34,546 nucleotides of DNA from a virus, in IMG/VR virus record IMGVR_UViG_3300030041_000050, positions 1 to 34,546 of that record; one strand, given 5' to 3'. The stretch's first letter is position 1, and every line of letters starts with the position of its first letter. Under the pieces are notes generated by a model. It was not told the DNA's origin and ran no database searches. It was given only the letters and a program-made list of their open reading frames with translations. Shown here piece after piece: positions 2,580-21,158 of the stretch. Both the position numbers and the translations under genes were made by a program.

Positions 2580-2594
2580 GTCGTGACAGACCGC

Positions 2595-2631
2595 AAAGAG
2601 CCGCTTCGTCGAAAGACCAGGCGGCTTCTTT
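2595..2631 (+). terminator. Intrinsic terminator closing the early rightward operon
   Basis: AAAGAGCCGC (2595-2604) pairs with GCGGCTTCTTT (2621-2631) with a single bulge, giving a GC core and a T-rich end. It separates the early genes from the cassette at 2649. Confidence 0.7.
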
Positions 2632-2648
2632 GTGTCTATTGGTAAGTC

Positions 2649-2677
2649 TTGACTGCATGGCTTCCCCGTGATACTAT
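2649..2677 (+). promoter_or_regulatory. Sigma70-type promoter of the repeat cassette
   Basis: TTGACT (2649-2654), exactly 17 bases, then TACTAT (2672-2677). The upstream extension TAAGTC matches the motif shared with other promoters of this genome (34281, 10117, 33346). Initiation is expected near 2684. It drives the two genes at 2724 and 3008. Confidence 0.75.
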
Positions 2678-2702
2678 CCAGGGCTAGGGAACAACCCTGG
2701 AT
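2676..2702. promoter_or_regulatory. Operator-like inverted repeat at the cassette promoter
   Basis: ATCCAGGG (2676-2683) and CCCTGGAT (2695-2702) are perfect 8-base arms around an 11-base centre. The left arm touches the -10 box and the expected start site lies at its edge. A full RNA hairpin could therefore not form in the transcript, which favours a protein-binding operator. Confidence 0.5.
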
Positions 2703-2723
2703 TCACCGTGAAAGAGAGATCTC

Positions 2724-3011
2724 GTGAAAATTGGCGATCGCGTTCTTGTCCGTACGTATTCCGCAGGCGTGCATTTTGGTACGTTAACGCTCCAAGACGG
2801 CAAGCATGTCGTTTTGAGTGATGCCCGCCGCATCTGGTATTGGACGGGAGCATTTACGCTTTCGAAAATCGCTTTAGATGGTGTTGGAAAAGATTCAAAG
2901 ATCTCGTGCGCTGTCCCCGAGATCACGCTGACCGAAGCCATCGAAATCATTCCTTTGAGTGATACGGCCAATAAGAACCTTACCGAATTCCCCGAGCACG
3001 ATATTAAGTGA
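2724..3011 (+). CDS. DUF6948-like small protein, partner of the dipeptide-repeat gene
   Basis: GTG at 2724 is preceded by AAAGAGAGATCTC. The 95-residue product has the pattern I associate with the DUF6948 family of phage and prophage proteins: VLVRTYSAGVHFGTL at residues 7-21, a VVLSDARRIWYWTGA core at 28-42, then LSKIALDGVG and EITLTEAIEIIPL near 66-78. Function of the family is unknown to me. It looks like a compact mostly beta fold with a conserved aromatic core. Its stop overlaps the GTG of the repeat gene (GTGA at 3008-3011), so the two are translationally coupled. Family name is from memory; the pairing is seen directly. Confidence 0.75.
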   Translation: MKIGDRVLVRTYSAGVHFGTLTLQDGKHVVLSDARRIWYWTGAFTLSKIALDGVGKDSKISCAVPEITLTEAIEIIPLSDTANKNLTEFPEHDIK

Positions 3012-3334
3012 GCAACGGGGCGGATAACGTCGCCCTTTCCCTCGGTCACGACGGCTACGGCTCCGGCTTCGGCTTCGGCTCCGGCTCCGGCTCCGGCGAC
3101 GGCTACGGCGACGGCTTCGGCTCCGGCTCCGGCGACGGCTACGGCGACGGCTTCGGCTTCGGCTACGGCTACGGCTACGGCTCCGGCTACGGCTTCGGCT
3201 TCGGCTTCGGCTACGGCTACGGCGACGGCTCCGGCGACGGCTTCGGCTTCGGCTACGGCTACGGCTACGGCTCCGGCTACGGCTTCGGCTCCGGCGACGG
3301 CTTCGGCTACGGCTTCGGCTTCGGCTACGGCTAA
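3008..3334 (+). CDS. Low-complexity (Y/F/S/D)-G dipeptide-repeat protein
   Basis: GTG at 3008 overlaps the upstream stop by four bases and continues without interruption to TAA at 3332. After a short leader (residues 1-14) all remaining residues form 47 X-G dipeptides: 15 YG, 14 FG, 10 SG and 8 DG. Every Gly is GGC and every X is TAC, TTC, TCC or GAC. The tight coupling to the DUF6948-like gene, the shared promoter and the terminator directly after the stop support it as a real gene. Composition resembles FG/YG/SG low-complexity tails that can self-associate, which is inference. Expression as a protein is unproven; the DNA or RNA repeat may be what matters. Confidence 0.65.
   Translation: MSNGADNVALSLGHDGYGSGFGFGSGSGSGDGYGDGFGSGSGDGYGDGFGFGYGYGYGSGYGFGFGFGYGYGDGSGDGFGFGYGYGYGSGYGFGSGDGFGYGFGFGYG
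3050..3331 (+). repeat. 47-unit GGC-NNC hexanucleotide array
   Basis: Units of NNC-GGC start at 3050 and recur every 6 bases for 282 bases. Variation is confined to the first two bases of the NNC codon, which takes only four values. Larger copies are embedded: units 7-12 (3086-3121) are identical to units 13-18 (3122-3157), and units 17-25 (3146-3199) are identical to units 32-40 (3236-3289). Confidence 0.97.
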
Positions 3335-3351
3335 AGCCTCGCCTTACCAAC

Positions 3352-3385
3352 AAGAAAAGGGCACCGATATTCGGGCCCTTTTCTT
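3352..3385. terminator. Bidirectional intrinsic terminator
   Basis: AAGAAAAGGGC (3352-3362) pairs perfectly with GCCCTTTTCTT (3375-3385). The A and T runs on the outer sides allow it to end both the rightward repeat cassette and the leftward replication operon, whose last gene stops at 3420. A second, AT-rich imperfect hairpin follows at about 3393-3422. Confidence 0.8.
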
Positions 3386-3419: not shown

Positions 3420-3863
3420 TTAAATGCGATATTTGACCGGACAAGTTAAGCCTTTTGACTTGCACTCAGCCCACGTCATCCACGATACATCCACCTCGCA
3501 ACGCTCACCACCGTCGTCCTTGAATGGTTCGACTAAGAATCTCTTGATGCGCGAGTCGTTCGGATACAGAACGCCTTGTAAGCCGTCTAGGATGAGCTTG
3601 GGCACGCCATCCACGTCTGCCCTGATATTGTAATAGCGAAGATGCACAACGGCGTAGAAGGGCTGTTTCCAGCCCGTTAAAGCTGCTTCTTCGTAGGCCA
3701 GGTTATAGACGAGGCTCTGATACGCTCGTGACTCGTTGCTTTTATACATGCGACCCCGGTAGCTGATACCGGCTGATCCTGTGACCTTGACTGCGGTAAG
3801 CCGTGCTTGCATGTTCGCGGTAATGGGCTTGCCGGGGATCTTGACCGTGATAGTCGGGATCAA
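3420..3863 (-). CDS. rusA: RusA-like Holliday junction resolvase
   Basis: The 147-residue product matches the RusA family in length and in its acidic active-site block: RADVDGVPKLILDGL at residues 81-95 followed by LYPNDSRI at 99-106, giving D83, D85, D93 and D103 plus K89. RusA resolves four-way DNA junctions as a dimer, and phage versions clean up recombination intermediates and branched DNA before packaging. The start ATG overlaps the upstream stop (ATGA at 3860-3863). It is the last gene of the leftward replication operon, the usual place for RusA in lambdoid-type phages. Confidence 0.85.
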   Translation of the reverse strand: MIPTITVKIPGKPITANMQARLTAVKVTGSAGISYRGRMYKSNESRAYQSLVYNLAYEEAALTGWKQPFYAVVHLRYYNIRADVDGVPKLILDGLQGVLYPNDSRIKRFLVEPFKDDGGERCEVDVSWMTWAECKSKGLTCPVKYRI

Positions 3864-10426: not shown

Positions 10427-11344
10427 CTACCAAGCGGTGATCTGGCAAATACCAGCGCCACCATTGCCACCAGCTCCGGCAGCACCAGAAGTGGCACTGG
10501 CCCCACCAGCTCCGCTTCCACCATAGCTACCACCGTTACCGCCTGTGAGCGTGCCGGTGCCGGTGCCACCGCCGCCGCCTTTTCCAGCAACTACTGATCC
10601 TGCTAGACCAGAAGCGCCGTTTGTCGTAGCCGGCGTCGAGGTATTATTCCCGTAATAAACATCTGCAGTAATACCACCAGCGCCGCCGTTGCCGGTAATA
10701 GAACCGCCACCGCCACCGCTGCCGCCACCTAGGTTGCCGCTGCCAGCACCGTTACCAGCGTTGCCATTGCCTGATGCACCGGCACCAGCAACGCCAGCAC
10801 CACCAATACCAACACCAAATCCGTTTGTGGCACCACCGGTGCCGCCAGTAGCTGAGCTACCACCGATGCCACCACCTGCTGCTGCTAGTCCGGTGGAAAC
10901 AATCGGTGTGCCATTTGCACTAACCGTGGCAACCCCACCACTACCGCCATTTCCACCGGAGCCTGCGTTTCCAGCCGTTCCACCAGCACCACCAGTCGGG
11001 ACGGAAACAACGATCACACCGGTAGAAATTAAGCTTAAAATTGACGAAAGCGTAAATGTTTGGCTGACATAAGAGCCACCGCCACCGCTACCACCGCCAC
11101 CGAAATTAGCTCCGCTACCACCACCGCCACCGCCACCGCCAGGACCAATACATGTCATGCTTACGTACTGATAATTCAGCGGGATAGTGATCGTCGAGGT
11201 TGTCGTACTGCCAGCAACACTCCCAGCAACAGTCCATACCTCAGGCGCATATGGATTGTAGATGCTAGCTGAAGCCGCGCTCGGCAACGCAAGCGCTAAT
11301 GCAGCACCAATACCGATTCCAAGATGCTTAAGGTGCTTCTGCAT
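10427..11344 (-). CDS. Glycine-rich protein with signal peptide (adhesin-like)
   Basis: ATG at 11344 overlaps the upstream stop (TAATG). Residues 1-26 form a Sec signal peptide: basic MQKHLKH, a hydrophobic core, and an SASA-type cleavage site before SIYNPY. After a short beta region (YQYVSMTCIGPGG) most of residues 72-300 are Gly/Ala/Ser/Asn with GG and GGxG runs and interspersed beta segments. Such Gly-rich lattices occur in phage receptor-binding tips (polyglycine helices). An adhesin is therefore likely, but the signal peptide is unusual for a virion protein. Total 305 residues. Confidence 0.65.
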   Translation of the reverse strand: MQKHLKHLGIGIGAALALALPSAASASIYNPYAPEVWTVAGSVAGSTTTSTITIPLNYQYVSMTCIGPGGGGGGGGSGANFGGGGSGGGGSYVSQTFTLSSILSLISTGVIVVSVPTGGAGGTAGNAGSGGNGGSGGVATVSANGTPIVSTGLAAAGGGIGGSSATGGTGGATNGFGVGIGGAGVAGAGASGNGNAGNGAGSGNLGGGSGGGGGSITGNGGAGGITADVYYGNNTSTPATTNGASGLAGSVVAGKGGGGGTGTGTLTGGNGGSYGGSGAGGASATSGAAGAGGNGGAGICQITAW

Positions 11345-18480: not shown

Positions 18481-19414
18481 CCAGCGCAATCCATGAGATA
18501 TACGCAGGCGTATTGATACCTGTACTTGATGGGTTGCAAATTTGAATCGCAAAACCCGTTGCGTTACTCGATAATACGTATGCCGTACTATATTCGCCAC
18601 GCCCTGAAATGACATTAGGAACAAGCGTGATGGTTGGCGTAGCAGAGAACGCTTTTGTAAATGTGACGTTATACCCGGTCACACACGTTGTGGCGGATAT
18701 GCCAATACTTGAGACAGCCAAATCACCATGTTCAAAATGCGTATCCGTTGAACCAGATGCACTTTGGGCATCAAACGGTAAAGTATAAGTTGTTCCAGAT
18801 ACCGTTTGATTCATCGTGCCGGCCAAAGTCGTGAAGGAACCATTTGCGGCAACGGCGGCACGAATGCCCATATCACCGCCATAATCAATGGCGACCGTGC
18901 CATATCCTGGGTTAGCGGTAATGAGCGCGTTGTTACCGGTAATGCCAGCTACGGCCAGGCTATTACTCGCACCAATGCCGCCTGTAGTATAGCCGCCAGC
19001 ACTGGTACCCCACAGAAGGCCGCTCTGCACGGCGGTTCCAGATACGCCAGCCATGAATGGTGTCCCGGAGCTTGTGCTCGTGACCGTACCGCTGGCGTTT
19101 AGCGTAGTCGTAGTCAGACCATTAGAGAATGTGTAATTCTGACTGCCGCCAAACGTCGCTTGCGCTCCGGTTGTGGGAATCACTTGACTGGCGTAAATCC
19201 CGGATGTGCCTATATTGTTGTAATCAATATTATTCCCGCAGCTTTGTAAATTGCTGAAATTGTTATTGACCTGAGCTGCTACCGCAGAAGTCCCAGCAGT
19301 AAAAGTGTATGGGATGGTACACGTCGTCGCCGATGCAGGGCGCGACATGAACCACATCAGCGCAATCATCCATGGAATAACAGTCAGTAGGCTATAGCGT
19401 TTGATTTGATGCAC
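18473..19414 (-). CDS. Putative tail fibre protein with signal peptide
   Basis: GTG at 19414 lies seven bases after GGGAG. This start gives a Sec-type N-terminus: HQIKRY, a hydrophobic core (SLLTVIPWMIALMWFM), and an ASA cleavage site before TTCTIPY. Residues after that read TAGTSAVAAQVNNNFSNL, a pattern often seen at the start of phage fibre and collar-type proteins. The remainder is Thr/Ser/Gly-rich and beta-like, ending in a compact domain (FSATPTITLVPN, AYISWIALGE). 313 residues. The signal peptide is unexpected for a cytoplasmically assembled virion part. Confidence 0.6.
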   Translation of the reverse strand: MHQIKRYSLLTVIPWMIALMWFMSRPASATTCTIPYTFTAGTSAVAAQVNNNFSNLQSCGNNIDYNNIGTSGIYASQVIPTTGAQATFGGSQNYTFSNGLTTTTLNASGTVTSTSSGTPFMAGVSGTAVQSGLLWGTSAGGYTTGGIGASNSLAVAGITGNNALITANPGYGTVAIDYGGDMGIRAAVAANGSFTTLAGTMNQTVSGTTYTLPFDAQSASGSTDTHFEHGDLAVSSIGISATTCVTGYNVTFTKAFSATPTITLVPNVISGRGEYSTAYVLSSNATGFAIQICNPSSTGINTPAYISWIALGE

Positions 19415-21158
19415 GTAATGGCTCCCAAGCAGCGACTTCAACGTAGTAACCGATTACAACCCACCCATTGGTGGAAGACTCAGAGAAGCCAATTTGGGCG
19501 TTGTTCGCTACCGCTGGCGCTTGCGTATCTAAGGCGAGAAATGCATACGGCTGGTTAGCATTGCCTTGGCCTGACCATTGCAACTGCCCCCAATCGGTGC
19601 CCCAAGTCGTTGCTGTTCCAACCGATGCTGTAATCTGTCCAGATGTACCGGATGTACGCCCACCGAGACTACCGCCGCCATACCAGAGTGCTTGAAACGT
19701 CAGCGAACCATTGTAAATGCCTGATGCTAAATGCCCGAATAGGCTTAAGACAAGCCACACTTTCGACACTGTTTTCGGGCGCAGCGCCCCATCTGCCGCC
19801 CAAATATCTTCAAAGAAATCAGACTTGCCTGTAAATAACGATGTAATAGGATTGCCATACCCGGTAGTTCCCGGGACAGCATCAGAGAATCCATAACCAA
19901 ACTTACTAACACGATCAAGACTCGCATCGACCCAAACGAAATTCCCATCATCTCCAGGGCCGCGCAGAGGTGCCGCGCCGCCAACATACATCCCCTGGAT
20001 CTCTCCAGTGGTTGGTTTTTGATTCTCATCTAATTGCCGGAAATTAAACCAAATGCCAGTATCGTTCGAATACGCACTTGATCCACTGGTAAACCAAATA
20101 AGATACTTGCCACTTTGACGAACCGCTACTGCTGTTTGGTTATTCGCAATAATCGCCGGATAACCAACCATGGTGGAGTCGAAATACGTGTTAATAGCAG
20201 TAGAGATTAATTCTGGTGGCTCGCCATTTAACGCAACAGTATATACACCGTCAATGCCAAGGAACACACCAAAGCCGTCGAAACGAACGATGCTACGAGG
20301 AGAAAGGCAACCAACCGACGCTGATATGATCGACGGATAAAAGATTGTCGCTCCATAAAGCGACGTGAAGGTAAAGGCATAAATACAGGCCTCTTTGAAG
20401 ATAATAATGCCAATTTCTAATGTTAATAAGCCGGTAATATTTCCGCCATTAACACCATCATTCAGTCCGACAAAATAAGGGATATACCCGGTAGCGTTCC
20501 CTGGAGACGTTAACGCTGCTGGAACGGTAAAGTTGTTCGGGTAATCAGGATTGCTGACATACACCGCAGACATCGCGGTAGGCTCGCCAGAATATAACAA
20601 ATAGTTCGAATATGTTGTCACATACGCCGGTGTAATGGTCGCACTAGCAGTAAGGTTCAACGGGACCTGGGCACTGGTCAATGACGTTGCAGCAGCAATG
20701 TTAAAGCCCGGTCCTTGCCATACCCAAGGCGTATCGACACCATTAACAATAAAAAGACAATTGGTCGCCGTGTTCGGCTCGTACATCTGCGCGGCTTGTA
20801 TCGGCCCCGCACCTGACGCCATCGATCCTATCGACGTCCACGTTGCATCAGAAGCCTTTGCCGCGTAAAGTTTATTGCCGTCCACCTGGACAATAACATA
20901 GGTTTGATTGTTGAAACGAGCTGTAGCAATGCCCGAACCAACACCGCCGCCACCTGTAGCAGCAGCAGTGATAAATGAATTCGAACCTGGGCGCTTCGAT
21001 ATCGAACGGCCATAGGCATACCAACAATTAACCGATTGTGAAAGTTGATTGCGCTTAATCGCATGGTCATCATCTGATGTATTTAACCCCCCGCCAAGAT
21101 CGTTATAGGGAACAATACGAGGCCCAGGTGGAAACGCAGATGTAGCTCTAGGGCCCAT
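19392..21158 (-). CDS. Tail nozzle / stabilisation protein (beta-propeller type)
   Basis: I prefer ATG 21158, five bases after the adaptor stop; TTG 21188 would overlap the adaptor gene. The N-terminal YNDLGGGLNTSDDDHAI and NQLSQSVNCW, followed by repeated beta segments (TYVIVQVDGNKLYAA, CLFIVNGVDTPWVW, KYLIWFTSGSS), match the nozzle proteins of short-tailed phages, which sit below the adaptor and close the tail tube. About 588 residues is in the normal range. Directly follows the adaptor gene, as expected. Confidence 0.65.
   Translation of the reverse strand: MGPRATSAFPPGPRIVPYNDLGGGLNTSDDDHAIKRNQLSQSVNCWYAYGRSISKRPGSNSFITAAATGGGGVGSGIATARFNNQTYVIVQVDGNKLYAAKASDATWTSIGSMASGAGPIQAAQMYEPNTATNCLFIVNGVDTPWVWQGPGFNIAAATSLTSAQVPLNLTASATITPAYVTTYSNYLLYSGEPTAMSAVYVSNPDYPNNFTVPAALTSPGNATGYIPYFVGLNDGVNGGNITGLLTLEIGIIIFKEACIYAFTFTSLYGATIFYPSIISASVGCLSPRSIVRFDGFGVFLGIDGVYTVALNGEPPELISTAINTYFDSTMVGYPAIIANNQTAVAVRQSGKYLIWFTSGSSAYSNDTGIWFNFRQLDENQKPTTGEIQGMYVGGAAPLRGPGDDGNFVWVDASLDRVSKFGYGFSDAVPGTTGYGNPITSLFTGKSDFFEDIWAADGALRPKTVSKVWLVLSLFGHLASGIYNGSLTFQALWYGGGSLGGRTSGTSGQITASVGTATTWGTDWGQLQWSGQGNANQPYAFLALDTQAPAVANNAQIGFSESSTNGWVVIGYYVEVAAWEPLRASNQTL

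Follow-up and report, generated by a model that had tools for sequence, protein, structure and literature searches.

What do two small overlapping genes do together when the first encodes a protein of a family known mainly by number and the second little more than glycine in alternation with a few other residues? The question was raised by the window, the complete 34.5-kb virus record (34,546 nucleotides) analyzed here, in which the portal, terminase, and major head genes lie on the minus strand. The pair, gene 1 and gene 2, is encoded on the plus strand, preceded by a run of small genes in the same orientation and followed by a RusA-like gene on the minus strand (Table 1), the latter being the sole neighbor of the pair within the window that was recognized by Pfam.

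Table 1. Features of the two-gene locus and its flanks, in coordinates of the window.
Feature	Position	Strand	Basis
Upstream hairpin, terminator-like	about 2592–2634	+	RNA fold −26.9 kcal/mol, z −5.5, 0/200 shuffles as stable
Sigma-70-like promoter TTGACT-17-TACTAT, TG before second hexamer	2649–2677	+	Consensus match only
Inverted repeat ATCCAGGG / CCCTGGAT, overlapping the −10	2676–2683 / 2695–2702	+	Sequence; RNA fold −12.1 kcal/mol, z −2.9
Gene 1, DUF6948 protein, 95 aa, GTG start, predicted Sm/LSm-type small beta-barrel	2724–3011	+	Pfam, AlphaFold2, Foldseek, VIA-align
Gene 1/gene 2 overlap GTGA	3008–3011	+	Gene 2 GTG overlaps gene 1 TGA
Gene 2, Gly-X repeat protein, 108 aa, GTG start; X = Tyr/Phe/Ser/Asp	3008–3334	+	ORF, tandem repeat, codon uniformity
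Hairpin AAGAAAAGGGC..GCCCTTTTCTT, bidirectional-terminator-like, between cassette and RusA-like gene	3352–3385		RNA fold −22.2 kcal/mol, z −5.2
RusA-like gene, convergent with cassette	3420–3863	−	Pfam RusA, E 9e-8

A sequence-only reading of this DNA had described the pair as two genes overlapping as GTGA, which was seen, and as flanked by a terminator, a promoter with an operator-like repeat, and a bidirectional terminator. Matches to all of these elements were present, and we treat them as candidates from consensus or folding matches only. The promoter-like site was the single such match between positions 2400 and 3600, where shuffled sequences led to an expectation of 0.3 in 1.2 kb, giving it modest statistical support. 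The inverted repeat is a possible operator or 5′-UTR hairpin. The downstream hairpin has A/T-rich arms that would serve both strands, with its T run inside the stem; a terminator scan gave no score to either hairpin. An antisense Arg-Ser open reading frame (2895–3353, minus strand) was rejected as a gene, as it mirrors the repeat. Elsewhere in the window, a second glycine-rich protein of 305 aa (10427–11344, minus strand) was Gly-Gly-Ser-rich with a signal-peptide-like start; it is probably located among the structural genes and is of another kind than the Gly-X chain.

Gene 1 matched Pfam PF22253 (DUF6948) over residues 5–85 of its 95 with an E value of 8e-31 and 106.5 bits, above the curated cut-off of 27 bits, and DUF6948 relatives were counted at 124 loci elsewhere, in agreement with the earlier description of the first protein as DUF6948-like and recurrent in phages. 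DUF6948 is referred to here as family A, and relatives outside Pfam, which no Pfam model recognizes, as families B and C (sequence example for B/C: IVVLDRGFVYVGDV...NAKNIRRWGTTKGLGELV...GTVRAP). Profile comparison with hhalign connected A to B (E 1.8e-6, probability 90) and B to C (E 8e-16), the direct A–C comparison alone being weak (E 0.0018, probability 15). Additionally, the DUF6948 hits in BFVD included a protein from Rheinheimera Barba (TM 0.68) with 104 aa, as many as the Barba member of family B has. Judged by these profiles, the three families share ancestry and constitute one superfamily of partners. When PDB sequences were searched using the A2 profile, nothing meaningful was returned, and phage records yielded no match to a DUF6948 query of the L035 type.

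The co-occurrence of the two genes was assessed from both directions. DUF6948 relatives were taken from IMG/VR contigs, phage records, and bacterial and archaeal genome contigs, and the 600 bases after each DUF6948 stop codon were read, counting only loci with at least 150 bases downstream (n = 124). Some contigs were near duplicates, and 111 DUF6948 sequences were left once close copies had been removed. That Gly-X arrays should follow DUF6948 homologues was the test proposed in the sequence-only reading, and the outcome was positive: a Gly-X gene was located immediately downstream in 113 of the 124 loci (75/77 on viral contigs, 5/7 in phage records, and 33/40 on genome contigs). Family B, sampled by protein and independently of arrays, was followed by an array in 69 of 71 loci. 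The reverse search with the array pattern returned 120 viral contigs, 23 of which did not carry true arrays; among the true arrays with room upstream, 71 of 79 had a partner (49 of family A, 15 of family B, and 7 of family C). The 41 arrays out of 120 that lacked a partner according to the first HMM had appeared to be counter-evidence, but most of them have family B or C upstream. The family-A loci, 1.2 Mb in all, contained no more than 8 arrays at other positions. This consistent co-occurrence indicates that a DUF6948-type gene and a Gly-X gene almost certainly form one working unit that has not been described.

The 11 DUF6948 loci without an array (about 9%) imply that gene 1 can exist without gene 2. 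Six of these were from Bacteroidota or Sulfurovum genomes (L253, L254, L258, L259, L261, and L266) and possibly represent a clade that lost the chain or uses another partner. Phage and contig records showed that the pair recurs across very diverse phages and host phyla. Cultured phages carrying it included Rhodobacter phage RcapNL, Iodobacter phage PhiPLPE, Rheinheimera phage Barba, Vibrio phage IKEMa6-1, Pectobacterium phages, and Chlorobiaceae phage CV-1-33, with 115 records of Rheinheimera Barba phages matching the partner. Two unusual arrangements were observed: two tandem DUF6948 genes 0.7 kb apart with a Gly-X array between them (L209; record G038, 19171–19425 and 19869–20123), and a Gly-X-type array upstream rather than downstream of DUF6948, suggesting a rearranged order (L143 1506; MW202478.1). 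Genomes of Neisseria gonorrhoeae and N. sicca (L370, L262, L264) carried DUF6948–Gly-X pairs with Asn-rich arrays; in gonococcal strains the arrays differed while the DUF6948 protein was constant, and the pair occupied three places in each gonococcal record. Plasmid matches were few (3 records), and two of these, the 2.17-Mb N. gonorrhoeae records NZ_CP119142.1 and NZ_CP119140.1, are listed as plasmids and apparently are chromosomes.

Among arrays with an identifiable start, the Gly-X start was upstream of the partner's stop codon in 94 of 112 family-A and 60 of 68 family-B loci; in family A an offset of −13 dominated (51 loci), and the −4 of the window was common to 11. An in-frame ATG was available to the Gly-X frame in 98 of 106 arrays and to the two alternative frames in 35 and 8, which indicates that the Gly-X reading is the selected frame; in arrays spelled with GGC, the common units make no stop codon in the other plus-strand frames. 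The leaders that precede the arrays differed between the families: the motif [LVI]T[LVI][DN]G was present in 45 of 68 family-B leaders, in 32 DNA spellings, and in none of the 112 of family A. The first two leader residues are partly set by the overlapping stop codon and the remainder is not. Such family-specific leaders suggest partner-specific docking.

Gene 2 consisted of a short leader and then a pure (G-X)n array up to the stop codon, confirming by open reading frame and tandem repeat the earlier view that the second protein is pure low complexity. Tandem Repeats Finder resolved positions 3051–3333 as 47 copies of a 6-mer or as 6.7 copies of a 42-mer, the latter period (87% match) hinting at block duplication. 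Codon usage was nearly invariant: TAC for 15 of 15 Tyr, TTC for 14 of 14 Phe, TCC for 11 of 11 TCN Ser, GAC for 8 of 9 Asp, and GGC for 47 of 49 Gly, compared to 41, 64, 11 (of all Ser), 31, and 38%, respectively, in the large genes of the window. Because of this uniformity, the repeat of gene 2 is not a chance one. Across 106 arrays, X was 34% Ser, 28% Tyr, and 24% Asp (together 86%), with 4% Asn and 3% Phe; Lys and Arg together made up 0.8%, and 105 of the 106 arrays were net acidic, with a mean of −0.12 charge per residue. Pfam and PHROGs matches of the Gly-X protein (TrAA12, KRTAP) were of low complexity and below the cut-off and were rejected. An RTX/beta-roll repeat was rejected as well: the GGxGxDxUx nonapeptide was absent, the dipeptide period was strict, Gly-Gly was rare, and the unit order was variable.

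Variation within arrays was concentrated at the sites that determine the amino acid. Variability amounted to 0.19 bits at the third base of Gly and 0.13 bits at that of X vs. 0.94 and 0.93 bits at positions 1 and 2 of X, and codon entropies of Gly, Tyr, and Asp were 0.14, 0.03, and 0.07 bits in the arrays compared to 1.85, 0.90, and 0.96 bits in long open reading frames of the same loci. Spelling nevertheless differed between the 106 arrays (GGCnnC in 53, GGCnnT in 31, GGGnnC in 9, and GGTnnC in 7). Since silent sites are uniform while the mixture of Tyr, Ser, and Asp is kept, the arrays look young and homogenized at the DNA level, and the pattern points to selection on the composition of the chain. 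Third positions were uniform across the Tyr, Ser, and Asp units of each array and differed between arrays; simple slippage models fail to explain such silent uniformity in combination with diverse X residues.

Comparison of closely related phages showed that the Gly-X chains evolve at a much higher rate than the sequence around them. The Pectobacterium phages Ymer and Amona were identical over 1000 bases upstream and 700 bases downstream, while their arrays differed by 12 of approximately 30 units; Taid and Ymer were one base apart in the DUF6948 gene and 16 units apart in the array. Array lengths in the Pectobacterium phages differed by multiples of 6 bases, the shortest being 159 and the longest 267, with silent changes in only about 9 of about 262 units. 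In Barba phages, a single-unit gain and single Tyr/Asn swaps were found. Short-read assembly of repeats could have contributed to differences between arrays.

The earlier reading held the first protein to be recurrent and uncharacterized; its recurrence is evident from the loci above, and for its character there is now a structural clue. An AlphaFold2 model of DUF6948 built from 112 aligned sequences (pLDDT 97) had strands at residues 6–11, 16–25, 28–39, 64–69, and 72–77, and the PDB matches listed by Foldseek were nearly all Sm, LSm, or archaeal SmAP chains (E about 1e-3). VIA-align superposed it on Lsm 6ppq_A (Z 8.3, 1.8 Å over 63 residues), archaeal Sm 1i8f_C (Z 8.1, 1.4 Å over 61 residues), and 3by7 (Z 7.3), a Z of about 8 being near the level at which the small-barrel arrangement alone can explain a match. 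Family B, modeled separately from its own 63 sequences (pLDDT 92), again matched mostly Sm/LSm proteins in Foldseek, and its best VIA match among those listed was the Sm-like protein 3by7 (Z 8.5 over 70 residues). As the two models were made separately and both were of Sm type, DUF6948 likely is an Sm-type five-stranded small beta-barrel, as a prediction. Profile similarity to LSM was not significant: Pfam LSM gave no hit for DUF6948, hhalign against 23 archaeal LSM sequences gave E values of 0.24 (DUF6948) and 0.57 (family B), Sm1/Sm2 sequence motifs were not found in DUF6948, and by inspection the canonical Sm RNA-pocket residues were not conserved in the A2 consensus. We therefore call DUF6948 Sm-like by its predicted fold and claim no membership of the LSM family. 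The structure 3by7, the closest solved one to family B among the matches listed and also matched by DUF6948, had an identity of 16–17%; its PDB title describes a protein from an uncultured source that is structurally similar to Sm/LSm-like RNA-binding proteins, and we take it to be of putative cyanophage origin.

The genomic neighborhood connected the pair to recombination genes. Among 105 neighbor proteins within 4.5 kb of the pair at 14 or so viral loci, RecT led the Pfam families (6), ahead of AAA_25 (4), YqaJ (3), and HNH (3), with DnaB, a single ERF, and a single SSB also present; PHROGs identified RecT/Bet-like annealing proteins and RecE-like exonucleases. In whole records, RecT or ERF was recognized in 13 of the 35 contigs of family A and in 8 of the 33 of family B, and 18 of these 21 recognized genes were within 4 kb of the pair vs. 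3.9 expected for random placement; in family A, all 13 were on the strand of the pair by their listed coordinates. Because phage genomes are modular, this proximity shows membership of an early recombination/replication block rather than direct function. The description of the pair as a self-contained cassette applied to Pectobacterium phages, where it is isolated between opposite-strand genes for a tail fibre and a membrane-associated protein, but not in general, since in Chlorobiaceae phage CV-1-33 it lies inside a run of same-strand genes.

The explanation that we favor, tentatively and at somewhat less than an even chance for the whole, is that the two genes constitute a phage module for handling single-stranded nucleic acid, with an Sm-fold binder and a tail supplied in trans. 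The protein made by gene 1 and its relatives would be a small beta-barrel of Sm fold with affinity for single-stranded DNA or RNA, and it would probably assemble into a ring or some other oligomer. Gene 2, translated by coupling from the same message, would provide a disordered, acidic, aromatic glycine-rich chain that joins the Sm-fold protein via its short leader. In trans, this chain would take the role that in cis belongs to the C-terminal tail of Hfq, which is acidic and in some cases rich in glycine, and to the glycine-rich linker and acidic tip of SSB, competing with nucleic acid and thereby making binding reversible; further, it may confer multivalent stickiness and recruit partners. 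The module would work early in infection, beside the phage annealing recombinase and exonuclease. If only chain length, Gly periodicity, and Tyr/Ser/Asp composition matter, 6-bp units of the array may freely be gained, lost, or exchanged. Tail physics of the Hfq/SSB kind acting in trans would explain the tight coupling, the conservation of composition without order, and the place beside annealing recombinases. A more specific version, in which the Sm-fold protein and a hypervariable, composition-selected polymer form a condensate or coat on single-stranded phage DNA at sites of recombination or replication, is in our estimate doubtful.

Known systems offer partial precedents. In Escherichia coli Hfq, the acidic tail and nucleic acid are competitors for binding to the Sm ring (PMC5606850), and in Acinetobacter Hfq, GGFGGQ repeats and an acidic tip matter for function (PMC11617691). 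The phage pair resembles Hfq in combining an Sm-type core, here a predicted one, with a disordered glycine-rich and/or acidic low-complexity chain, which in Acinetobacter is also a tandem repeat. Unlike in Hfq, where the acidic chain is part of the same polypeptide, the phage chain is separated by the stop codon of gene 1 and encoded by an overlapping gene of its own, is strictly Gly-X, is rich in Tyr and Ser beside Asp, and is hypervariable; its core lacks significant LSM sequence similarity, and its genomic link is to recombination genes rather than sRNA regulation. SSB likewise unites a small beta-barrel nucleic-acid binder with a disordered Gly-rich chain and acidic tip and acts with recombination proteins, and its glycine-rich linker regions tune condensation (PMC12143593); however, its fold is of the OB type and its tail is in cis, whereas DUF6948 is Sm-like by model and its binding is inferred. 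Borg aaTR are fast-evolving tandem repeats that yield disordered protein, some of them on Borg Sm proteins (PMC9879509). Those repeats are perfect, of varied units, and placed inside many unrelated proteins (N-terminally in Sm proteins), whereas the phage Gly-X array has one unit type, one partner superfamily, and a separate gene in tailed phages.

Other readings of the pair were weighed against this module. Hypervariability between near-identical phages, acidic chains, and the placement of small early-region genes in a cassette that has promoter-like and terminator-like signals to itself would also suit counter-defense or host takeover. In that case, the Sm-fold protein or the chain would block a nuclease or sensor of the host by imitating nucleic acid or acting as a decoy for it, and the array would track the host target. 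Yet the same few units vary in order and number, creating no new surfaces, and conservation across very diverse phages and host phyla is unusual for a defense-specific inhibitor; we consider this role unlikely. A toxin–antitoxin-like or chaperone–client pair, in which the upstream protein keeps an aggregation-prone, harmful Gly-X chain soluble or neutral, would account for the partner-first order of overlapping genes, the family-specific leaders, and the occurrence of gene 1 alone in some loci while gene 2 alone is rare. It appears quite unlikely, given that no maintenance role is evident in phages, that plasmid matches are so few, and that Gly/Ser/Asp-rich chains are usually soluble.

The nearly uniform codon choice and the turnover by whole 6-bp units raise the question of whether the DNA array itself is kept as a recombination or regulatory site for the neighboring annealing recombinase, with the protein as a by-product. 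This is very unlikely in our view: Gly-X persists through differences in spelling between arrays, the reading frame is maintained, and the transition products His, Cys, and Pro are rare while the transversion-linked Tyr, Ser, and Asp dominate. Alternating glycine is also a feature of silk and other structural proteins, and in one record the product is named lamprin, which could be taken to indicate a silk-like or adhesive polymer associated with the virion or envelope. That annotation (MW202613.1, L274 2725–3039) is a low-complexity misannotation; moreover, most loci examined adjoin recombination/replication genes rather than head or tail genes, the Pectobacterium phages being the exception, and no signal-peptide-like leader was evident, which makes a structural polymer highly improbable.

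The open-access library searched, which most subscription papers fall outside of, contained no mention of DUF6948 or of GYGYGDG and no description of the Gly-X gene or of the pair, and a broader open-access search on phage low-complexity proteins gave nothing relevant. As a working idea, the proposed module varies the theme of a tailed Sm/Hfq or SSB protein; what is new to us is a gene pair in which the hypervariable tail is encoded separately. It turns an orphan DUF6948 and an overlooked low-complexity neighbor into one testable two-gene system across many bacterial phyla, and it links an Sm-type fold to phage recombination, a link of which we know no description. If the tail does act in trans, the pair would constitute a natural experiment on the requirements of a disordered tail, and the sister alleles of Ymer and Amona, in which the partners are the same but the units are ordered differently, allow the contributions of order and composition to be asked directly. 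If the condensate or coat is real, the early module of tailed phages would commonly include this pair as a component that has so far gone without a name.
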